Assembly (NCBI GenBank): GCA_001897525.1
Contig: MKTB01000018.1
Span: 62,001-126,000 of the forward strand
From: Bacteroidetes bacterium 43-16
GTDB lineage: Bacteria; Bacteroidota; Bacteroidia; Chitinophagales; Chitinophagaceae
Direction of reading: 5' to 3'
DNA: 64,000 bases
A program made the translations under genes and the position numbers. The notes beneath the pieces are model-generated. The model searched no databases. It was not told the origin of the DNA and saw only the letters and a list, made by a program, of their open reading frames with translations. Positions 37,077 through 64,000 of the stretch are shown here, one piece after another (the first letter of the stretch is position 1; every line of letters starts with the position of its first letter).

Positions 37077-37219
37077 GCTGTATCCATTATACCTGGGCGC
37101 AATAATAGCACATTCATCCAGGATGAGACCATCAAATATAAAAATTAAAGGAGAAAAAAACCGCAAAAGAAGGCAGGTAAACAAATCTATTAAAGGCGGC
37201 ACTTAGGGGCACAAAAAAA

Positions 37220-37313
37220 GGCAAGTTACTTATATCGCACCGCTCAACCATCTATCCTTGCTGCATTCCTGCCCTGGGGAGGTTCAATAGGAGCTGGTCG
37301 TATAAGACTTGCC
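37220..37313 (-). ncRNA. ffs: Signal recognition particle RNA (4.5S type)
   Basis: About 94 nt on the minus strand. The conserved apical part is visible as CCAGGGCAGGAATGCAGCAAGG (the SRP core with GGAA-type tetraloop and GCAGC). Outer stem: GGCAAGTC...TATA at the 5' end pairs with TATA...ACTTGCC at the 3' end. A T7 tract (37219-37213 on the minus strand) ends transcription. With Ffh it targets membrane proteins to the translocon. Confidence 0.93.
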
Positions 37314-37318
37314 GGCTG

Positions 37319-37349
37319 CAAAGGTAGGTATTTTGATTAAAAAAACAAA
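37319..37349 (-). promoter_or_regulatory. ffs promoter, perfect Bacteroidota form
   Basis: On the minus strand TTTG (37349-37346), 19 bases, TACCTTTG (37326-37319). The expected start, about 6 bases on, coincides with the 5' end of the RNA at 37313. Confidence 0.85.
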
Positions 37350-54522: not shown

Positions 54523-55539
54523 GTGAAAGAGCAAATAGGACCAACCATATTAGCCATTGAGAGCTCCTGCGACGAGACCTCTGCCGCCATCATTAGCGAT
54601 GGCAAAGTGTTAAGTAATATTATAGCCACGCAAAGTGTCCATGAGCAATATGGCGGTGTAGTACCGGAAATTGCCTCCAGGGCCCACCTGCAGCACATTG
54701 TTCCCGTAGTACACCAGGCATTACAGGAGGCCGGAATATCTAAATCAGGTCTTGAGGCCATCGCCTTTACCCAGGCCCCCGGCCTGTTAGGGTCCTTACT
54801 GGTGGGTGCCAGCTTTGCCAAAGGTATGGCCCAGGCACTGGATATACCGTTGATCGGAGTCCATCATATGCAGGCCCATGTTTTGGCACATTTAATAGAA
54901 GATCCCAAGCCACAGTTCCCTTTTCTATGCCTGACGGTCTCCGGCGGGCATACCCAGATCGTACTCGTACGCAGTCCGCTTGAAATGGAGATCCTGGGCG
55001 AGACCATCGATGATGCGGCAGGAGAAGCTTTTGATAAAGTAGCCAAAATGCTGGACCTCCCCTACCCGGGCGGACCACTCATCGATAAGTATGCACAGAC
55101 GGGTAATCCTTTGGCTTATGAATTCCCGATACCCAATATCCCGGAACTGAATTTCAGTTTTAGCGGGATCAAAACAGCCGTGCTCTATTTCTTACAAAAA
55201 CAGGTAAAGCTCAATCCTGAATTTATCCGTGAAAACATCAGCGACATTGCAGCTTCCGTTCAATACACCATTGTAAAAACGCTCCTTAAAAAATTTGAGA
55301 AAGCCGCCAAACAATATAAGATCAAACAGATCGGCGTAGCCGGAGGCGTATCTGCCAATAGCGGCTTAAGAAAAGCATTAGAAGACTTAGGACATAAAAA
55401 TGGCTGGGAAGTATTCCTGCCCAAATTTGAATACTGTACCGACAATGCAGCGATGATAGCCATCACAGCACATTACAAAATGCTGCATAAAGAATTTACA
55501 GACCTGCGTGCCATACCCTCTGCCAGGGCCGAATGGTAA
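54523..55539 (+). CDS. tsaD: tRNA threonylcarbamoyladenosine transferase subunit
   Basis: 338 residues starting at GTG. TsaD/Kae1/Gcp family: ILAIESSCDETSAAI, EYGG-like EQYGGVVPEIASRAHLQHI, metal-binding HHMQAHVLAHL (two His), FLCLTVSGGHTQIVLV and the C-terminal GVAGGVSANSGLR...DNAAMIAI. With TsaB/E and TsaC it makes t6A37 on ANN-decoding tRNAs. Confidence 0.97.
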   Translation: MKEQIGPTILAIESSCDETSAAIISDGKVLSNIIATQSVHEQYGGVVPEIASRAHLQHIVPVVHQALQEAGISKSGLEAIAFTQAPGLLGSLLVGASFAKGMAQALDIPLIGVHHMQAHVLAHLIEDPKPQFPFLCLTVSGGHTQIVLVRSPLEMEILGETIDDAAGEAFDKVAKMLDLPYPGGPLIDKYAQTGNPLAYEFPIPNIPELNFSFSGIKTAVLYFLQKQVKLNPEFIRENISDIAASVQYTIVKTLLKKFEKAAKQYKIKQIGVAGGVSANSGLRKALEDLGHKNGWEVFLPKFEYCTDNAAMIAITAHYKMLHKEFTDLRAIPSARAEW

Positions 55540-55595
55540 GCGATCTGTAAAGCACATAGTATCATCAAACGGGATTAATTCTGAATGCAATAAAA

Positions 55596-56321
55596 ATGGC
55601 CAATACTTATTTTCAATTTAAGCAATTCACCGTTCACCAGGACAAAGCTGCGATGAAAGTGAGTACAGATGCCTGTATCCAGGGAGCTATAGCGGCACAA
55701 TACTGGCAGAAAAAAAATCCGGGCAAGATCCTGGACATAGGTTCAGGTACCGGTTTGCTCTCCCTCATGCTTGCCCAGCATTTAACGAAAAGTGAACTTA
55801 CCGCCATCGACATCGAAGAGCAGGCCTTTATGCAGACCAGGGACAACTTCGCTCAAAGCCCCTGGCAGCAAAGGTTACAGGCATTACACAGCTCTTTGCA
55901 GTCATTTGGCAATGATACCTATTTTGATGCCATTATCTGCAATCCACCTTTTTTTCACAAACACCTGAACAGCCAGGAAAACAACCGGAATATGGCCCGG
56001 CATGATGAAGGATTGAACAAATCCGTACTGGCAAAAAGCATTCATGACCTGCTGCAGGAATCCGGTAGCTGTTGCCTGCTCTACCCGGCCACAGAATGGG
56101 CTGCATGGACCCTTGCGGCAAGGGAACAGGAACTATACCCGGAACATACAGTCTATATACAACCTTACGAGCATAAAGCGGCCAACAGAGTTATTGGCTT
56201 TTTTAGCAGGCATAAGCAAGCAGCGCCCACAACAGCACAATTGACCATTTATGCAGATACCGGGAAAACCTATACGCCACAATTTATCGCACTCCTGCAA
56301 ACCTATTATATGAATCTTTAG
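55596..56321 (+). CDS. tRNA1(Val) (adenine37-N6)-methyltransferase-like
   Basis: 241 residues. Class I SAM-dependent methyltransferase: MKVSTDACIQGAIAA then motif I KILDIGSGTGLLSLML and the target-amine motif NPPFF (in DAIICNPPFF). These match the YfiC/TrmN6 group that methylates A37 of tRNA-Val. tsaD, another position-37 tRNA modifier, lies directly upstream. Confidence 0.9.
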   Translation: MANTYFQFKQFTVHQDKAAMKVSTDACIQGAIAAQYWQKKNPGKILDIGSGTGLLSLMLAQHLTKSELTAIDIEEQAFMQTRDNFAQSPWQQRLQALHSSLQSFGNDTYFDAIICNPPFFHKHLNSQENNRNMARHDEGLNKSVLAKSIHDLLQESGSCCLLYPATEWAAWTLAAREQELYPEHTVYIQPYEHKAANRVIGFFSRHKQAAPTTAQLTIYADTGKTYTPQFIALLQTYYMNL

Positions 56322-56336
56322 CGTATAAATAGTTCT

Positions 56337-56996
56337 ATGATACAACACAAGCCCGAAAAAATCTATGTACTAAGCGGCCTGAGTGTAGATCACCGGGTCT
56401 TTGCAGGCATTGACTTTGGCACGCTTGAAGTGGTACCTATAGCCTGGCTGCCACCGTTTGCTGATGAACCCTTAGCAGATTATGCACGGAGACTAAGTGC
56501 ACAGATTACTGAAGCACTCCCCATTATTCTCGGTCTTTCTTTTGGCGGGATCATGGCGCAGGAAATCGCGCGCATCATCCCCTGCCGCAAAATCATACTA
56601 CTTGCCTCCGCTCAGACCAAATATGAACTGCCCGTGCTTTATCGATTCTTCGGCAAACTCAACCTGCACAAACTGGTTCCCGGTTTTTTCTTCAAATATT
56701 CCTGGGCACTTACAGAATATTTTTTTGGGGTAAGTACTACCCGGGAAAAGAAACTCCTGGCCCAGATCTTAAAAGAAACAGACCCGGTTTTCAGGAACTG
56801 GGCAATCCATGCCTTACTTCATTGGGACCGCACACAAGCAATTGACAATAGTGTAGTTGTGCATGGAAGCAAAGATAAAATTATCCCCATAAGCAAGGTA
56901 CAAGCGGATTTCACGGTCCGGGATGCCGGCCATTTTATGACGGTGACCCATGCCGGAGTTCTGAGCGACCTCCTCAAAAAAATAGTGAAACATTAA
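56337..56996 (+). CDS. Alpha/beta hydrolase
   Basis: 219 residues, compact fold. Nucleophile elbow LGLSFGGIMAQEIA (GxSxG), acid in VVHGSKDKIIP and His in DAGHFMTV complete the triad. No lid insertion. Substrate unknown. Starts 15 bases after the methyltransferase gene and may be co-transcribed. Confidence 0.87.
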   Translation: MIQHKPEKIYVLSGLSVDHRVFAGIDFGTLEVVPIAWLPPFADEPLADYARRLSAQITEALPIILGLSFGGIMAQEIARIIPCRKIILLASAQTKYELPVLYRFFGKLNLHKLVPGFFFKYSWALTEYFFGVSTTREKKLLAQILKETDPVFRNWAIHALLHWDRTQAIDNSVVVHGSKDKIIPISKVQADFTVRDAGHFMTVTHAGVLSDLLKKIVKH

Positions 56997-57015
56997 ATAA
57001 AATTTCAAAAAAAAA

Positions 57016-57046
57016 TTTGGTATTTAAAATTCCTCCCCTACATTTG
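57016..57046 (+). promoter_or_regulatory. Promoter of the aromatic amino acid operon
   Basis: TTTG (57016-57019), 19 bases, TACATTTG (57039-57046): the same spacing as the ffs promoter. The expected start (about 57052) is just before the leader peptide ATG. Confidence 0.8.
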
Positions 57047-57053
57047 TCCTGAA

Positions 57054-57137
57054 ATGGCAAACATCAACCGCGCATATTACCACTTTTGGTTTTACTTCTT
57101 TAGCAAAGAAGCCGGGTATCATTTGTCTGAACTATAA
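57054..57137 (+). CDS. Aromatic-rich attenuator leader peptide
   Basis: 27 codons, ATG 57054 to TAA 57137. Residues 8-16 are YYHFWFYFF: three Tyr, four Phe, one Trp and a His in nine codons, with another Tyr at 22. The downstream operon makes exactly these aromatics. Ribosome stalling in 57075-57101 would cover the first arm of the hairpin at 57095-57111. The peptide has no other plausible role. Initiation would be almost leaderless. A charged tail (KEAGYHLSEL) follows the control codons. Confidence 0.85.
   Translation: MANINRAYYHFWFYFFSKEAGYHLSEL
57095..57116 (+). promoter_or_regulatory. Attenuator 1:2 hairpin and antiterminator segment
   Basis: CTTCTTT (57095-57101), loop AGC, AAAGAAG (57105-57111) form a 1:2 stem inside the leader peptide. 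The adjoining GCCGGG (57111-57116) can pair with CCCGGT (57168-57173) of the terminator 5' arm. A ribosome stalled on the aromatic codons opens the 1:2 stem and favours the antiterminator. Confidence 0.7.
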
Positions 57138-57166
57138 TTTTATTTTCTCAAGATTTTGACAATAGC

Positions 57167-57197
57167 TCCCGGTCCTTATGGCCGGGATTTTTTATTT
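57167..57197 (+). terminator. Attenuator terminator of the aromatic operon
   Basis: TCCCGGTC (57167-57174), loop CTTAT, GGCCGGGA (57080-57087 of this block, i.e. 57180-57187), then six T. It ends directly before the pheA start. Confidence 0.85.
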
Positions 57198-57198
57198 T

Positions 57199-58035
57199 AT
57201 GAACATTGCAATTCAAGGTTATCCGGGAAGCTTTCATCATGAAGCGGTACAAAAGTATTTTGGTACCGGGGCAAAAATCCTGCCCTGTGCCAGCTTCAGG
57301 GAATTGATCAAAGCAGCAGCAGACAGCAGGCTTACAGACGGAGGCTTAATGGCCATCGAAAATTCGATTGCCGGCAGCATCCTGCCCAATTACAGTTTAT
57401 TGCACAATAGCGATCTGCATATTGTGGGTGAAGTGTACCTGCTCATCAAGCAGCAACTGATGGTGCGCAAAGGTGTTCAACTAAAAGATATTACAGAAGT
57501 ACATTCCCATAATATGGCCCTCCTGCAATGCGGCACGTTCCTGGATCAGTATCCCTGGAAGCTGGTAGAGACCGAAGACACTGCCCTAAGCGCCAAAAAC
57601 ATTGCAACGCAGGAGATGCGCCATACCGCCGCTATAGCCAGCAAAGCTGCGGCCAGGCTATATGACCTCGACATCATTGCGCCTGATATCCAGGACCTGC
57701 ACAACAATTACACCCGTTTCCTGGTATTGAGCCGTGATGTCGCGGAACAAAGTACAGGTGATGCAGATAAAGGATCTTTAAGCTTTAGCGTGGCACATGA
57801 GACCGGCAGCTTATCAAAAGTCTTACAGATCATTAGCCTGGAAGGCCTTAACATGAGTAAACTACAGAGCATACCGGTACCCGGCGATGCATTCCGATAT
57901 CAATTCATTGCAGACCTCGAATTTGACCACGTTGACCAATTATACACTATGATAAAGAAAATTAAAACTTACACCAATACCTGTAAACTACACGGTATTT
58001 ACAAAAAAGCAATATGGAAACAGCAAACAGACTAA
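57199..58035 (+). CDS. pheA: Prephenate dehydratase
   Basis: 278 residues from ATG 57199; the in-frame ATG at 57178 lies inside the terminator and is rejected. It converts prephenate to phenylpyruvate. PDT domain: MNIAIQGYPGSFHHEAVQKYFG, MAIENSIAGSILPNYSLL, then the HNNYTRFLVLSR motif containing the catalytic Thr; ACT domain (about 195-270) GSLSKVLQIISLEGLNMSKLQSIPVPGDAFRYQFIADLEF binds Phe for feedback. No chorismate mutase domain: that activity is in the DAHP synthase fusion. First gene of the operon; overlaps the next by 22 bases. Confidence 0.96.
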   Translation: MNIAIQGYPGSFHHEAVQKYFGTGAKILPCASFRELIKAAADSRLTDGGLMAIENSIAGSILPNYSLLHNSDLHIVGEVYLLIKQQLMVRKGVQLKDITEVHSHNMALLQCGTFLDQYPWKLVETEDTALSAKNIATQEMRHTAAIASKAAARLYDLDIIAPDIQDLHNNYTRFLVLSRDVAEQSTGDADKGSLSFSVAHETGSLSKVLQIISLEGLNMSKLQSIPVPGDAFRYQFIADLEFDHVDQLYTMIKKIKTYTNTCKLHGIYKKAIWKQQTD

Positions 58036-59177
58036 ACGGCATCCAGGAATACTACTTCTCTGCCAAGCTCAGGGAAATAGAAGCCATGAACCAGGCAGGC
58101 AAAGCGGTCATTAACCTGGGTATCGGAAGCCCGGACATGGCCCCCCACCCTTCGGTCATTGAAGCATTACATGAAAACAGCCTTTCGCCCAAAAACCATG
58201 CCTACCAAAGCTATAAAGGCATCCTGCCACTACGACAAGCTGTGGCGGACTGGTACCATGACCATTATGCAGCAGTCATCGACCCGGAAACAGAGATCCT
58301 GCCTATGATGGGAAGTAAAGAAGCCCTTACCCACATCTGCATGACCTATCTTAACCCCGGCGACAAGGTATTGATCCCTAACCCCGGCTACCCTACCTAT
58401 AGAAGTGCGGTAAGTCTTGCCGGTGGCATCTGCGTAGAATATACCCTCACAGACACCGGGAATTCGGGGATAGATCTACAACAATTGAATGCTATTGAAA
58501 AAGGCACGGTTAAACTCATGTTCCTTAATTTCCCGCATATGCCTACCGGCAAGCGAATGGGTAAAGAAGGCTTTGAACAAATAATCCGCTTCGCAAAAGA
58601 AAAGGAAATCTTATTAATTCATGACAACCCGTATAGCTTCATCCTGAACGATCAGCCGCTCAGCATACTGAGTATAGAGGGCGCTAAAGACTGCGCCATA
58701 GAATTAAACTCATTAAGCAAATCCCATAATATGGCAGGATGGAGAATGGGCTTTATGATAAGTGTAGCAGCACATATACAGGACGTGCTCAGGTTCAAAT
58801 CGAATATGGACAGCGGTATGTTCCTGCCCCTGCAAATGGCCGCGATCAAAGCGCTTAACCTGGACCAGGAATGGTATGAAGGCCTGAATAAGGAATACAG
58901 TAAACGCAGGGTGCAGGCTAAGGAGATCTTTGACAGCTTGCAGTGCACCTATACAGAAGACCAGGCAGGCCTGTTTTTATGGGCACGCATACCCGGGCAT
59001 TATGAAGATGCATTCCGGATAAGTGAGGACATTTTACACAAGCATAATGTCTTTATTACTCCCGGTGGCATCTTTGGCAGCGAAGGCAATCAATACCTGC
59101 GGATAAGCCTGTGTAGCCCGGTAAATGTACTCGCAACAGCACTTAAAAGGATCAGTGTACATGAAACAGTTCAGTAA
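58014..59177 (+). CDS. Class I/II aminotransferase, probably aromatic
   Basis: 387 residues of PLP fold type I. PLP lysine in ELNSLSKSHNMAGWRMGFM; MNQAGKAVINLGIGSPDMAPHPSV at the N-terminus, NPGYPTYRSAV, and HDNPYSFIL are typical. Position between pheA and tyrA, with overlaps on both sides, points to transamination of phenylpyruvate and 4-hydroxyphenylpyruvate to Phe and Tyr. An aspartate or LL-DAP role cannot be excluded from sequence alone. Confidence 0.92.
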   Translation: METANRLNGIQEYYFSAKLREIEAMNQAGKAVINLGIGSPDMAPHPSVIEALHENSLSPKNHAYQSYKGILPLRQAVADWYHDHYAAVIDPETEILPMMGSKEALTHICMTYLNPGDKVLIPNPGYPTYRSAVSLAGGICVEYTLTDTGNSGIDLQQLNAIEKGTVKLMFLNFPHMPTGKRMGKEGFEQIIRFAKEKEILLIHDNPYSFILNDQPLSILSIEGAKDCAIELNSLSKSHNMAGWRMGFMISVAAHIQDVLRFKSNMDSGMFLPLQMAAIKALNLDQEWYEGLNKEYSKRRVQAKEIFDSLQCTYTEDQAGLFLWARIPGHYEDAFRISEDILHKHNVFITPGGIFGSEGNQYLRISLCSPVNVLATALKRISVHETVQ

Positions 59178-60021
59178 GAAAAACATAGCCATCATCGGCG
59201 TAGGCCTTATCGGCGGCTCTTTTGCCTTAAGATTGCATGAGAAAAAACTGGCCCATCAACTCATTGGTGTGGAAGCTGACGAACAGCATGCGCAACAAGC
59301 ATTAGAACTGGAATTGGTAGACCACATCTGTTCCCTGGAGGAGGCTATTAAGGAAGCAGATGTACTCCTGCTCACTATCCCGGTCAATGAAATATGTGAT
59401 CTGCTGCCCTCCATCCTGGATCAGATCTCCGGTCAGCAGATCGTGCTGGATGCCGGTTCCACAAAAGAAGCCATTACCAGGAGCATAAAGGACCATCCCA
59501 ACAGGAAAAGATTTGTCCCCACACACCCCATGTGGGGTACAGAACACAGGGGCCCGGGAGCTGCCGTACAAACGGCATTCCAATCCAAATCGGTGGTGAT
59601 CTGTGATACCGCAGACTGCGATACCGATGCCCTGGAATGGGTTATACATATGTATGAGAAGATAGGAATGCAGGTACTGGAAATGACGGCAAAAGAACAT
59701 GATATACATACGGCCTACATTTCGCATATATCGCATATCACTTCATTTGCCCTGGCCAACACGGTTTTAGCAAAAGAGCAGGAGGCTAAGACTATTTTCG
59801 ACCTCGCCAGTTCCGGTTTCGAAAGCACGGTAAGGCTGGCCAAAAGTAACCCGGGTATGTGGCTGCCCATCCTGCTGCAGAATAAAGATAATATCACTGA
59901 GGTCTTAGATGAACATATCAAACAGCTCCATGCATTCAGAACAGCTATTACAGGAGCAGAATCAGAACAGCTGTTACAACTCATACTAAAAGCGAACCAG
60001 ATTAAAAAAATATTAAAATAG
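59161..60021 (+). CDS. tyrA: Prephenate dehydrogenase
   Basis: 286 residues from ATG 59161. NAD-binding KNIAIIGVGLIGGSFALRL, the substrate-binding THPMWGTEHRGPGAAVQTAF and the helical HDIHTAYISHISHITSFALA with catalytic His. It oxidatively decarboxylates prephenate to 4-hydroxyphenylpyruvate. No ACT domain, unlike some relatives. It overlaps the aminotransferase gene by 17 bases. Confidence 0.95.
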   Translation: MKQFSKKNIAIIGVGLIGGSFALRLHEKKLAHQLIGVEADEQHAQQALELELVDHICSLEEAIKEADVLLLTIPVNEICDLLPSILDQISGQQIVLDAGSTKEAITRSIKDHPNRKRFVPTHPMWGTEHRGPGAAVQTAFQSKSVVICDTADCDTDALEWVIHMYEKIGMQVLEMTAKEHDIHTAYISHISHITSFALANTVLAKEQEAKTIFDLASSGFESTVRLAKSNPGMWLPILLQNKDNITEVLDEHIKQLHAFRTAITGAESEQLLQLILKANQIKKILK

Positions 60022-60045
60022 CACTAACTTTGAACATACAATTTC

Positions 60046-61140
60046 ATGGAAAACACTATAAAAGTACCTGAAAATACAATAGAAAGCATATGGCAGCAAA
60101 AACCACTGATCATTAGTGGCCCCTGCAGTGCAGAAACAGAAGAACAAGTCATAAAAGGTGCAGAAGACCTGGCCGCCACCGGTAAAGTAAACGTCTTCCG
60201 GGCCGGGATATGGAAACCACGTACAAAGCCCGGTATGTTTGAAGGGGTAGGCGCAGCAGGACTTCCCTGGCTGCAGGAAGCCAAGAAACGCACCGGCTTG
60301 CCCATGGCCGTAGAAGTGGCTACCGCAAAGCAGGTGGAGCAGGCGCTGGCCCATGATGTGGATATGCTCTGGATAGGTGCGCGCACTACAGTCAATCCTT
60401 TCTCTGTGCAGGAAATAGCAGATGCCTTACAAGGAGCTAAAGTACCCGTATTCATCAAAAACCCGATCAATGCAGATATAGAACTATGGTCAGGCGCTAT
60501 GGAGCGGATCTCCCGGGCCTCTATCTCAAAGATCGGGCTCATACACCGGGGATTCAGCAGCTATGGCAATACCCAATACCGGAATGCACCCATGTGGCAC
60601 CTGGCAATTGACATGAAGCTCCGCTACCCGGATGCTGTAATGATCAATGACCCTTCGCATATCTGCGGCAGGAGAGATACCCTGCAAGCCGTGATGCAGA
60701 AGGCTGCCGACCTGGACTATGACGGACTGATGATCGAAAGCCATATTGATCCCGACAATGCCTGGAGCGATGCAGCACAGCAGATCACCGCAGAGCGGCT
60801 TAATGAACTGTTGGACCAGATCCAGTGGAGGAAAGAAGATGCTAATTCCGTCTCTTACCATACAGCACTGGAAGCCATACGTCAAAAGATCAATCAACTG
60901 GATGATGAACTGCTCCAGCTGTTGAGCCGGAGAATGATGTTTGCAGAAGAAATAGCCCAATACAAGAAAGCCAATAACATCACGATCCTCCAGGCAGGCA
61001 GATGGTCAGAGGTGCTCGACAATGCAATCAAAACCGGTGAAAAGAAAGGGCTGAGCAAGGATTTCATCACAAAATACTATGATGCTATTCACATTGAAAG
61101 CATCAATCATCAAAAGAAAATAATGGACGCACAGGACTAA
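60046..61140 (+). CDS. Bifunctional DAHP synthase/chorismate mutase
   Basis: 364 residues. The DAHP synthase part (about 1-265, KLIISGPCSAETEEQ, GIWKPRTKPGMFEGVG, EVATAKQVEQAL, WIGARTTVNPF, DPSHICGRRDT, ESHIDPDNAWSDA) is of the small KDO8P-like type. The C-terminal 90 residues form an AroQ chorismate mutase (EAIRQKINQLDDELLQLLSRRMMFAEEIAQYKKANN). The enzyme condenses PEP and erythrose-4-phosphate at the entry of the pathway and makes prephenate at the branch, linking both control points. Confidence 0.95.
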   Translation: MENTIKVPENTIESIWQQKPLIISGPCSAETEEQVIKGAEDLAATGKVNVFRAGIWKPRTKPGMFEGVGAAGLPWLQEAKKRTGLPMAVEVATAKQVEQALAHDVDMLWIGARTTVNPFSVQEIADALQGAKVPVFIKNPINADIELWSGAMERISRASISKIGLIHRGFSSYGNTQYRNAPMWHLAIDMKLRYPDAVMINDPSHICGRRDTLQAVMQKAADLDYDGLMIESHIDPDNAWSDAAQQITAERLNELLDQIQWRKEDANSVSYHTALEAIRQKINQLDDELLQLLSRRMMFAEEIAQYKKANNITILQAGRWSEVLDNAIKTGEKKGLSKDFITKYYDAIHIESINHQKKIMDAQD

Positions 61141-61152
61141 ACCATTTTATTC

Positions 61153-62184
61153 ATGCAGGTACAATCATTTAAAATTGCCGGCCAGCAGGTAGACTACTAT
61201 TTTGATGCAGCCTTTTCAGCGCTGCATCAAATAGCAGATACCAAGCGTGCGGTACTCATTACCGATAAAAATGTATTTAATGCCCATAAAGCCAAATTCA
61301 AAAACTGGCGCACCATTGTGATTGAGCCCGGTGAAAACCATAAAAATTTTGATACCGTTCAATACATTATCGGGGAACTTGCCGGCTATGAAGTGGACAG
61401 AAGCTGCACGCTGATTGGTGTGGGTGGTGGTGTCGTGACCGACATTACCGGTTTTGTAGCCAGCATTTATATGCGTGGCGTCCGCTTTGGTTTTGTACCC
61501 ACCAGCTTGCTCAATATGGTTGATGCTTCCCTGGGCGGAAAAAACGGGATTGACTTCGGCCTGTACAAAAATCTTGTCGGTAATATCACCCAACCCAAAT
61601 TTATCCTGCAGGATGTGAGCTTATTGCAAACACTACCACAAGAGGAATGGGAAAACGGTTTTGCCGAGATCATCAAACATGCCTGTATCAAAGATAAAAC
61701 GATGTTTGATGCACTGGCCAAGCACCAGCTCAGCGAATACATGGGAGACCGGGAGCTGCTGGAAGCACTCATCCGTAAAAATGTGTTTATTAAATTAAAG
61801 GTGGTACAAAAAGATGTGTATGAAACCGGCGACCGGAAGCTGCTCAATTTTGGCCATACCATCGGCCATGCTATAGAGAACATTTGCCAGATTGCTCATG
61901 GAAAAGCCATAGCTATAGGCATGGTGCTGGCCGCTAAAATAGCGGAGAAAGAAACCGGCTTCGATGGCACAGAAAAAATAAAAGCTGTGTTGAAGAACTA
62001 CAACCTGCCGCTTATGATCCCCTTTGATGCAGCAGCAGTATTTGAAGTGCTTAAGCTGGATAAGAAAAGGGCCGATCAGCAAATACATTTTATCCTATTA
62101 CAAAAAACAGGTAAGGCCCTGGTGCAAGCCATTAGTCTTACCCGGCTGAAGAGCTATTTAAAAATATTCGAAAAAGAAAGCTGA
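61153..62184 (+). CDS. aroB: 3-Dehydroquinate synthase
   Basis: 343 residues. NAD/Zn-dependent cyclisation of DAHP. Signatures: GVGGGVVTDITGFVASIYMRGVRFGFVPTSLLNMVDASLGGKNGIDFGLYKNLVG, the metal ligand EIIKHACI and NFGHTIGHAIE (Zn His). The stop codon overlaps the aroA start by one base (TGATG), so the two are translationally coupled. Confidence 0.96.
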   Translation: MQVQSFKIAGQQVDYYFDAAFSALHQIADTKRAVLITDKNVFNAHKAKFKNWRTIVIEPGENHKNFDTVQYIIGELAGYEVDRSCTLIGVGGGVVTDITGFVASIYMRGVRFGFVPTSLLNMVDASLGGKNGIDFGLYKNLVGNITQPKFILQDVSLLQTLPQEEWENGFAEIIKHACIKDKTMFDALAKHQLSEYMGDRELLEALIRKNVFIKLKVVQKDVYETGDRKLLNFGHTIGHAIENICQIAHGKAIAIGMVLAAKIAEKETGFDGTEKIKAVLKNYNLPLMIPFDAAAVFEVLKLDKKRADQQIHFILLQKTGKALVQAISLTRLKSYLKIFEKES

Positions 62185-63473
62185 TGCGTGTAGAGATCAA
62201 AGCTTCCGTACTTAATGGCAGTATAAATATCCCAAGTTCTAAAAGTGCCATGCAGCGCGCCTGTGCAGCAGCATTGCTCAATAAAGGCACAACTACGATC
62301 AGTCATCCCGGCATCAGCAAAGATGACCAGGCAGCGCTTTCCATCATCCGTCAACTGGGGGCAAGGATAGAAAAAAACAAGGAGCAGGTCATTGTACACA
62401 GCAATGGCCTGGAAAGCCTGAAGGCCGCACATCCCGGGCTACTGCACTGTGGCGAATCCGGGCTGAGCATTCGTATGTTTACTCCCATAGCAGCGATCAA
62501 TGCACAACCGATCACGATTGATGGTGAAGGTTCTTTAAAAAGCAGGCCCATGCATTTTTTTGAAACTGTACTGCCTGCTTTGGATGTAACCTTTCAATCA
62601 CAGCAATCCTGTATCCCGCTTCATATAAAAGGACCTTTGCAGCCCAGGGATATACAGGTAGACGGCAGCAAAAGTTCTCAATACATCACCGGGCTCATTA
62701 TGGCTTATGCAGGTATCACAACTGAAGAAACAAGAATCAGCATTACCGACCTTAAATCTAAACCATATGTAGACCTCACCCTGTCCATCATGCAGCATTT
62801 CGGGATGAACGTACCCCGTAATGAAAACTATGAACAATTAATTTTTCAGCCCGCCTTAGCACAGGTCAATAAAGACATTCATTATACAGTAGAAGCTGAC
62901 TGGAGCAGCGCCTCCTTCCTCCTGGTGGCAGCAGCCACTAATGGTGCTTTGACCCTTAAAGGCTTAGACCTGCACTCTACGCAGGCAGATAAAGCCATCC
63001 TTATAGCCCTAGATCATGCAGGGGCAAATATCCAACTGGATCAGGATAGCATAAGCATTACACCATCGGCATTACAGGCCTTTGAATTTGATGCAACAGA
63101 CTGCCCGGACCTCTTCCCTCCACTGGTAGCCCTCGCTGCTTGTTGCAAAGGCAATACCCGCATCAAAGGCGTAAGCAGGCTGGTGCACAAAGAAAGTAAC
63201 CGCAAAGAGAGCCTGGAAACAGAATTCAGAAAAATGGGCCTGCACCTCTACTCAGAGGATGATGAGATGATCATCGAAGGCGGAACGCCGTTAAAAGGTA
63301 ACCAGGTATCTTCCCATAACGACCATAGAATCGCTATGGCTTTAGCTATTGCCGCCTTAAACGCAGCCGGAACTACGACCATTAGAGGTGCTGATGCCAT
63401 AAAAAAATCTTACCCCGACTTTTTTACCGATTTACAACAATTGGGTGCAACACTGATCCAGACCAAGGAATGA
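62184..63473 (+). CDS. aroA: EPSP synthase, atypical PEP-site loop
   Basis: 429 residues. 3-phosphoshikimate 1-carboxyvinyltransferase. Substrate Ser/Lys region INIPSSKSAMQRACAAALLN, EADWSSASFLLVAAAT, RLVHKESNRKESLETEFRKMG (SKEsdR variant) and DHRIAMALAIAAL are all present. The loop that in E. coli reads GNAGTAMRP is here CGESGLSIRMF, keeping the Arg but changing Thr97/Pro101 equivalents. Last gene of the operon; its start overlaps the aroB stop. Confidence 0.94.
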   Translation: MRVEIKASVLNGSINIPSSKSAMQRACAAALLNKGTTTISHPGISKDDQAALSIIRQLGARIEKNKEQVIVHSNGLESLKAAHPGLLHCGESGLSIRMFTPIAAINAQPITIDGEGSLKSRPMHFFETVLPALDVTFQSQQSCIPLHIKGPLQPRDIQVDGSKSSQYITGLIMAYAGITTEETRISITDLKSKPYVDLTLSIMQHFGMNVPRNENYEQLIFQPALAQVNKDIHYTVEADWSSASFLLVAAATNGALTLKGLDLHSTQADKAILIALDHAGANIQLDQDSISITPSALQAFEFDATDCPDLFPPLVALAACCKGNTRIKGVSRLVHKESNRKESLETEFRKMGLHLYSEDDEMIIEGGTPLKGNQVSSHNDHRIAMALAIAALNAAGTTTIRGADAIKKSYPDFFTDLQQLGATLIQTKE

Positions 63474-63539
63474 TCCGGTTCCCGGCTTAATGGTCACCTT
63501 GCGCAACCAGCATTCATTCAATAAAAAATTAAAAAAAAT

Positions 63540-63561
63540 TGCGTAGTTAAATAACTACGCA
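63540..63561. promoter_or_regulatory. ArsR-family operator, 22-base palindrome
   Basis: TGCGTAGTTA (63540-63549), AA, TAACTACGCA (63552-63561): perfect 10-base arms. It lies between TTG (63539-63541) and the -7 element TATATTTG (63562-63569), so a bound regulator would block RNA polymerase. Confidence 0.8.
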
Positions 63562-63569
63562 TATATTTG
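63562..63569 (+). promoter_or_regulatory. -7 element of the ArsR/SRPBCC operon
   Basis: TATATTTG, 18 bases before the ATG, 20 bases after a TTG at the -33 position. Confidence 0.7.
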
Positions 63570-63587
63570 TAGTCAAATGACTTCACA

Positions 63588-63911
63588 ATGAACTTAAGAA
63601 GAGATGTATTCCAGGCCATAGCAGATCCTACACGCAGGGCGATACTTACCCTCGTGGCCACGCAAGCCATGACGGCCGGGGCCATAGCCGCCAACTTTGA
63701 TACAGCAAGACCTACGGTGTCTAAACACATACAGATCTTGAGCGAATGTGAACTGTTACAGGCAGCGCAAAACGGCAGGGAAATATACTATCACCTCAAC
63801 CCGGAAAAAATGAAAGAGATCGCAGACTTCATCGCCCCTTTTGCCAAACTCTGGGACGACCGTTTCAATACATTAGAAGCCATAATGAACAACTACAAAA
63901 ACAAAAAGTAA
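63588..63911 (+). CDS. ArsR-family winged-helix regulator
   Basis: 107 residues. [68 protein letters not shown] is the usual ArsR winged helix. No metal-binding cysteine motif is present, and it belongs to the group paired with SRPBCC/AHSA1 proteins. It should repress its own operon through the palindrome at 63540-63561. The next gene starts right at its stop. Confidence 0.94.
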
Positions 63912-64000
63912 ATGGAACTGAAAACAAAAATCCATGCAGAAGATAACAAGCAGGAAATTATCATTACCCGTACATTCGACCTGCCTCTTGAACTCTTGTT
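63912..64000 (+). CDS. SRPBCC/AHSA1-domain protein (5' end only)
   Basis: Open frame from ATG 63912 to the window end, 29 codons: MELKTKIHAEDNKQ then EIIITRTFDLPLELL, the typical first strand of an AHSA1/START-like fold. ArsR plus SRPBCC pairs are common; the SRPBCC protein binds a hydrophobic ligand. C-terminus not in the window. Confidence 0.82.
   Translation, partial: MELKTKIHAEDNKQEIIITRTFDLPLELL

Follow-up and report, generated by a model that had tools for sequence, protein, structure and literature searches.

We suggest that the operon running from pheA to aroA is controlled by a ribosome-mediated transcription attenuator which pools the supply of phenylalanine and tyrosine, and we put the probability of this reading at about 0.9. 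The attenuator would occupy the leader directly upstream of pheA, on the + strand of the window (the whole 64,000-nt stretch of DNA that was analysed, to which all positions refer). Leader-peptide attenuators of pheA (PheL) and of the trp and his operons are known from enterobacteria. Ribosome-stalling attenuation of the pheA operon had been proposed in the first-pass annotation, and the comparison of relatives speaks for it through the small frame, the spacing and the covarying folds. The elements of the leader and the genes behind it are as follows.

57016..57019, + strand: -33 type promoter box TTTG, 19 nt before the -7 box (from sequence)
57039..57046, + strand: -7 promoter box TACATTTG, of the form TAnnTTTG (from sequence)
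57051, + strand: predicted transcription start (+1), some 3 nt upstream of the leader AUG, placed by the promoter span given in PMC9723704
57054..57137, + strand: leader peptide ORF of 27 codons, MANINRAYYHFWFYFFSKEAGYHLSEL (from sequence), with equivalents in 110/110 family pheA loci examined
57075..57101, + strand: control codons YYHFWFYFF (from translation and comparison)
57095..57111, + strand: hairpin P1 over the last control codons, 57095-57101 with 57105-57111 (from codon-shuffle folding)
57111..57127, + strand: antiterminator 5' arm, GCCGGG at 57111-57116 plus inner TTGTC at 57123-57127 (from comparison)
57158..57173, + strand: antiterminator 3' arm, GACAA at 57158-57162 plus CCCGGT at 57168-57173 (from comparison)
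57167..57193, + strand: intrinsic terminator, stem 57167-57187 and T6 57188-57193 (from folding and comparison)
57199..58035, + strand: pheA, prephenate dehydratase (PF00800, 3.3e-56)
58014..59177, + strand: class I/II aminotransferase (PF00155, 1.9e-59)
59161..60021, + strand: tyrA, prephenate dehydrogenase (NF006307 over cut-off; start assumed, longest frame from 59125)
60046..61140, + strand: DAHP synthase fused to chorismate mutase (PF00793 and PF01817)
61153..62184, + strand: aroB, 3-dehydroquinate synthase (TIGR01357 over cut-off)
62184..63473, + strand: aroA, EPSP synthase (TIGR01356 over cut-off)

The promoter, the 27-codon frame with YYHFWFYFF, the hairpin, the 5' arm and the six-T terminator had all been annotated before and are read directly at these positions. 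The antiterminator segment had been given as 57111-57116. It is able to pair with 57168-57173, and the pairing is longer than was claimed, being extended by the inner helix TTGTC/GACAA. The CCCGGT of the antiterminator 3' arm overlaps the terminator 5' arm. By protein search the genome of the window holds a single pheA match.

The terminator stem folds with -14.4 kcal/mol (z -3.24), and 1 of 200 shuffles is equally stable. The stability of the whole leader is ordinary, with z -1.08 for single-sequence folding against shuffles, and a terminator scan of 55000-64000 stays at background, with 10 found and 10.4 expected. Thus, single-sequence statistics alone are no proof, and relatives were used instead. 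The weakness of these statistics is what would favour a constitutive terminator accompanied by a chance or otherwise non-regulatory small ORF.

In the family of the window, pheA was found in 204 of 294 sampled genomes. We examined 110 of these loci, namely the best 30 returned and 80 chosen from the places listed, and together with two Flavobacteriaceae loci (L031 and L032) and one Sphaerobacter locus they form a set of 113. An ORF with at least 7 aromatic residues in 9 stands upstream of pheA in 104 of the 113 loci; the reverse strand gives 0 of 113 and dinucleotide shuffles give 3 of 2260. The nine loci missed by the scan are the Sphaerobacter locus and eight family loci, and in those eight the element is visible by eye, weakly in L097 and L106. 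The leader device is found in all 110 family loci examined, 102 by scan and eight by eye. A terminator follows the aromatic ORF in 103 of the 104 loci, none being found in L070; this locus is left out of the family statistics for that reason, together with L031, L032 and L033. Conservation of the small frame and of the stems in relatives, on which the earlier proposal had been staked, thus holds in 110/110 family loci examined, with both folds covarying.

The antiterminator pairs CCGGG with CCCGG and adds an inner helix, usually UUUUGUUG with CAACAUAA and in the window UUGUC with GACAA. Its covariation was followed in alignment A1 of 76 sequences, from which 27 of 103 were dropped (L031, L032 and those at least 80% identical to one kept). 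In A1, 86.4% of the antiterminator cells are paired and 9 of the 13 pairs have changes on both sides, neither value being equalled in 500 shuffles; this and the following figures are not strict probabilities, as the shuffles and permutations keep shared ancestry and the pair scheme comes from the same alignment. For the terminator, the paired fraction is 96.0% (0 of 500 shuffles) and both-side changes occur in 5 of 8 pairs (2 of 500). When antiterminator arms are permuted among loci on non-overlapping segments, the own partners give -22.3 vs -18.7 kcal/mol for the permuted ones, the strongest of 5000 permutations reaching -19.6 (n=101). The inner helix alone gives -6.9 for own and -5.6 kcal/mol for permuted partners, with -6.1 for the strongest permutation (n=100). 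By comparison, the leader therefore holds a mutually exclusive antiterminator with covariation support, as leader-peptide attenuators do. The constitutive terminator is already contradicted by the conserved composition of the ORF, its conserved spacing and the two mutually exclusive covarying folds, and we give it practically no weight.

The same hairpin could also act in translation, by hiding the pheA start until the leader ribosome opens it, with no transcription termination involved. This suits the window, where the pheA ATG (57199) stands 12 nt past the terminator stem. It does not suit the T-tract placed directly behind the stem, nor the distance from the stem to the pheA homology, which ranges from 7 to 195 nt with a median of 42 (the true start distances are possibly shorter). 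We consider translational control highly improbable and retain transcription termination as the preferred reading.

The position of the antiterminator relative to the control codons is what a stalled ribosome would need. In a search limited to 5-20 nt past the last aromatic codon, the distance from that codon to the arm is 9-12 nt in 99 of 101 loci. A wide search for the longest complement of the terminator 5' arm began 60 nt ahead of where the run ends and reached almost to the terminator. There, this complement starts 5-15 nt past the run in 90 of 98 loci and elsewhere in 8 of 98; in 3 of 101 loci this search found no complement of at least 5 nt. The leading edge of the ribosome is estimated at about 16 nt from the P-site. 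If this value is assumed, a ribosome whose A-site is on the final Phe codon of the window leader has exactly C57112 as the first free base, and the control codons are so placed that a stalled ribosome would leave the arm free. The stop codon lies 5-30 nt past the arm start in 97 of 101 loci and before the arm in 4 of 101, so a terminating ribosome would usually cover the inner arm. The arm occurs in all three frames relative to the leader (72/17/12), hence its nucleotides are kept for the RNA and not for the peptide.

Hairpin P1, taken as the five codons to the last aromatic one plus 9 nt, has a mean of -2.7 kcal/mol in the 101 family loci vs -0.7 kcal/mol in synonymous-codon shuffles, and for 62 of 101 loci equal stability is reached by less than 10% of the shuffles. 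P1 is likely under selection beyond codon needs. The hairpin over the last codons (57095-57111) does not mask the antiterminator arm. Only the last base of P1 touches that arm, CCGGG itself lying at 57112-57116. As P1 ends just before CCGGG, it can coexist with the antiterminator and is thus not the classical 1:2 protector. Our guess is that it serves in pausing or in coaxial stacking.

The 12 residues up to the last aromatic one comprise, over 101 family leaders, 562 F, 343 Y and 18 W of 1212; F and Y together make up 905/1212, and W is present in 18 of the 101 runs. Judged from these codons, the conserved pheA leader is a predicted sensor of Phe plus Tyr and is best called a Phe/Tyr sensor. 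Of the three aromatic amino acids which the first-pass annotation had it sense, Phe and Tyr stand and Trp falls away, given the few runs with W and the separate WWW leader of trpE. The one Trp codon of the window leader may add little sensing in its genus. It is common to the window and L002, the only sampled congener with a pheA match; the congeners G031, G125 and G192 gave no pheA match at E 0.001.

Such a run might instead work as a peptide: the poly-aromatic chain would stall in the exit tunnel on a free ligand, in the manner of TnaC, and the reading of codons would be incidental. The run is indeed strongly aromatic, and 100 of 102 loci have F as its final residue. However, its order is loose, with 77 distinct 9-residue strings in the 102 loci and with F and Y largely interchangeable, and the residues past the run vary with the frame. 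The F/Y order is slightly more conserved than in shuffled runs (0.575 vs 0.517). In the same genome, WWW, HHHHH and YYY stand in the frames ahead of trpE, hisG and a tyrS-like gene, respectively, which is what codon sensing predicts. We therefore hold nascent-peptide arrest to be improbable and prefer the reading of codons by a stalling ribosome.

These other leaders are as follows. The trpE gene (L186, G000:C15) is preceded by a MQQFSQNMWWW leader, MQQFSQNMWWWQF.., in a frame ending MQQFSQNMWWWQFKSYGVRMAFSCIW, likely a Trp attenuator. The hisG gene (L187, G000:C17) is preceded by MFTNQLHHHHHIF.., with MFTNQLHHHHHIFAQAR, HHHHH, in its frame, likely a His attenuator. By eye, a GC-rich hairpin with a T-run comes after the trpE frame, and a hairpin with a T-run comes after the hisG frame. 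The third leader (L115, G000:C17:33631-33795, minus strand) is the second match in this genome (E 0.006) to R1, our model of the RNA element. It has a frame with STYYYG, whose start is uncertain, a CCCGGG arm and a CCCGGGC terminator before a tyrosyl-tRNA synthetase-like gene (PF00579, tRNA-synt_1b of the W and Y class, 1.1e-72). A third R1 match in this genome (L116, E 0.57) was set aside, no leader being seen there.

The TAnnTTTG box spans -12 to -5 according to the excerpted text of PMC9723704, where leaderless mRNAs are given as 5.5% of the mRNAs examined in the species of that study. Of 103 loci, 86 have an exact TAnnTTTG in the 40 nt preceding the leader ATG and 78 have it at 4-9 nt, and for the latter the promoter position predicts a 5' UTR of 0-5 nt (78/103). 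At the distance seen in the window, the -33 box reads T, T, T, G in 85, 90, 71 and 51% of the 83 TAnnTTTG-aligned loci, the window's own included. Outside the family, with the box taken as TAnnTT(T/A)G, a gap of 18 nt is more frequent than any other (8 of 53 loci), gaps of at most 10 nt are found in 8 of 53, and no such box was found in 19 of 53. Five loci of the same order have gaps of 7-8 nt (L146, L147 and L149) and of 27 and 35 nt (L148 and L184), and in the window's own genome the distance from box to leader ATG is 21 nt for trpE and 22 nt for hisG. The near-leaderless leader is a predicted feature of most of the window's family and is patchy elsewhere. The nearly leaderless initiation that had been noted for the window is upheld as a prediction.

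In the window, the antiterminator and terminator segments have equal stability (-14.3 vs -14.4 kcal/mol), and across the 101 loci the two folds are nearly equal as well (-18.7 vs -18.2 kcal/mol), the antiterminator being the stronger in 54. At equilibrium and in every ribosome state computed, the terminator of the window forms with P 0.92-0.98 and the antiterminator does not exceed 0.03. An equilibrium model of the ribosome states thus gives no switching, with the terminator dominant at every ribosome position. As the terminator always wins at equilibrium in the window, the choice must be kinetic and rest on the order of synthesis. We infer the following course of events, its kinetic steps and its response to supply, from the anatomy, conservation, covariation and spacing described above.

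In the first step, RNA polymerase would start about 3 nt before the leader AUG, and the ribosome would follow it and translate the aromatic run.

In the second step, the supply would decide. When charged tRNA-Phe or tRNA-Tyr is scarce, the ribosome would stall on the run with its estimated leading edge at or before CCGGG. The 5' arm (CCGGG with the inner UUGUC) could then pair with the emerging 3' arm (GACAA..CCCGG), and the antiterminator would occupy the terminator 5' arm, so that the operon is read.

When the supply is good, the ribosome would reach the stop codon and cover the antiterminator 5' arm. The terminator would then form, and transcription would probably end near 57193.

Related versions recur in many other Bacteroidota, mostly in the window's own class. 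R1 matches at E 0.01 or better are found in at least 71 of 395 genomes of the phylum, a lower bound owing to strict filters; the family accounts for 12 of these genomes, the remainder of the order for 1, the remainder of the class for 50 and the rest of the phylum for 8. pheA itself has matches in 340 of the 395 genomes, of which R1 covers a part. In the family part of this sample, 12 of 14 genomes have both pheA and the element, and the same other two have neither. Among the 29 best R1 loci (10 from the family, the window's own genome apart), pheA is downstream in 27 by tblastn, and in the remaining two (L138 and L143) the gene behind the element is not pheA and encodes a DAHP synthase-chorismate mutase. 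One R1 match among the 8 genomes from the rest of the phylum (G298, L181) was rejected as a tRNA cluster and not a leader, so R1 is not perfectly specific.

Twenty pheA loci with no R1 match, 17 from the order and class and 3 from the rest of the phylum, were also inspected. An ORF with at least 6 aromatic residues in 9 is present in 17 of the 20 and the full architecture in 13, and an aromatic leader was not seen in L159, L164 and L165. The aromatic ORF is present in 16 of the 17 order and class loci, all with strong pheA matches, which indicates that R1 is not fully sensitive; weaker class-level pheA matches (families f4 and f10, and G602) lie outside this sample. An automatic test for the full architecture is passed outside the family by 44 of 59 loci (39 of the 59 fetched on R1 matches), by 0 of 59 reversed and by 0 of 590 mononucleotide-shuffled sequences. 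The arms outside the family differ (CGAGAC, AACGAGG, GGCAGGA, CGAATCG and others) and have matching, compensated partners.

Other arrangements were seen as well. Three loci of family f9 (L154, L156 and L162) have two tandem aromatic frames before pheA, 73-95 nt apart. By script, a terminator lies behind the first frame in L156 and L162 and was not found in L154, and the stretch scanned past the second frame gave none; these loci may hold a double attenuator. In G540:C15 (L185), an aromatic leader with a terminator is on a different contig from pheA, and the gene behind it presumably begins as a DAHP synthase does.

The element resembles the enterobacterial pheA, trp and his leaders in the product-rich leader peptide, in the mutually exclusive antiterminator and terminator and in the U-tract before the structural gene. 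Unlike in those leaders, here Phe and Tyr are pooled in one run, the promoter is of another class, no hairpin is seen masking the antiterminator 5' arm, and the AUG is, by prediction, nearly leaderless.

The leader (R1 element) has no Rfam gathering match in the window. Control by a T-box or riboswitch was dropped, as neither has a gathering match there. A permissive search gave sub-threshold matches to other families, the best being anti-hemB with E 0.0096 and 21 bits vs a cut-off of 49.5. Bacteroid-trp (RF01692), whose name we take to point to trp genes, has no gathering match in the window and none at E 0.001 in the window's genome. The Rfam scan of the window also gave a small SRP RNA of Bacteroidales type at 37215-37321, which together with the promoter class and the relatives in Flavobacteriaceae points to Bacteroidota; for the family, our guess from these data would be Chitinophagaceae.

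In the excerpts of earlier work considered here, several reports come near to the present one. A structured 5' element upstream of pheA, again with no Rfam hit, was described in 2021 for Flavobacteriaceae including Flavobacterium psychrophilum, and the same study saw clues to attenuation by leader peptides ahead of amino-acid operons (PMC9723704). It concerns the same gene in the same phylum. An equivalent leader is present in the Flavobacteriaceae loci L031 and L032 and is perhaps the same element. Beyond what the excerpted pheA account holds, we describe the anatomy and codons, the spacing rule, the Phe/Tyr specificity, the near-leaderless start and the spread outside Flavobacteriaceae. RF01692 is, in the text cited, a cis-regulatory candidate of Bacteroidetes (PMC2864571). 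To the knowledge of the authors of PMC2965389, in the passage concerned, no bacteria other than Proteobacteria and Actinobacteria had been shown by 2010 to use leader peptides, ermC apart. The survey of Lopatovskaya, Seliverstov and Lyubetsky (2010; cited in PMC4833913), by its title a comparative analysis of attenuation in amino-acid and aminoacyl-tRNA operons, may already include Bacteroidetes cases. The polycysteine leaderless small ORFs of mycobacteria (Canestrari 2020, as cited in PMC9031893) are alike in that the leader ORF is leaderless and contains a run of the codons whose amino acid is sensed, and differ in phylum and amino acid.

The statement of the first-pass annotation that such a leader is not known to have been described for this phylum thus needs narrowing: the PMC9723704 excerpt flags a pheA 5' element, giving no anatomy or codons for it, and RF01692 is a Bacteroidetes candidate. 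In the excerpts considered here, we found no account from Bacteroidota of a leader that pools Phe and Tyr, of the rule of spacing or of a start so nearly leaderless.

A bolder reading, which we offer tentatively and at somewhat less than even odds, is that a distinct one-step attenuator design is common in one class of Bacteroidota. It would combine, in the window's family, leaderless loading of the ribosome onto the very first nucleotides of the nascent RNA, gating by the footprint at a near-fixed 9-12 nt, a Phe/Tyr pool and pausing or stacking by P1. In this design the ribosome footprint, and not a protector hairpin, would gate the antiterminator, and P1 would keep ribosome and polymerase in step. 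If this is true, the leaderless form would be a local refinement, as other groups have the switch mostly with a longer 5' UTR.

Leader-peptide attenuation is best known from Proteobacteria. In the large group concerned here, which does without typical Shine-Dalgarno initiation, it looks like a standard part of the aromatic pathway, and it would require ribosome and polymerase to be closely coupled there. With its near-fixed spacing, the leader offers a natural ruler for the position of the ribosome on the nascent RNA, and more than 100 natural variants allow quantitative tests. Annotators gain a short gene and an RNA element, represented by model R1.
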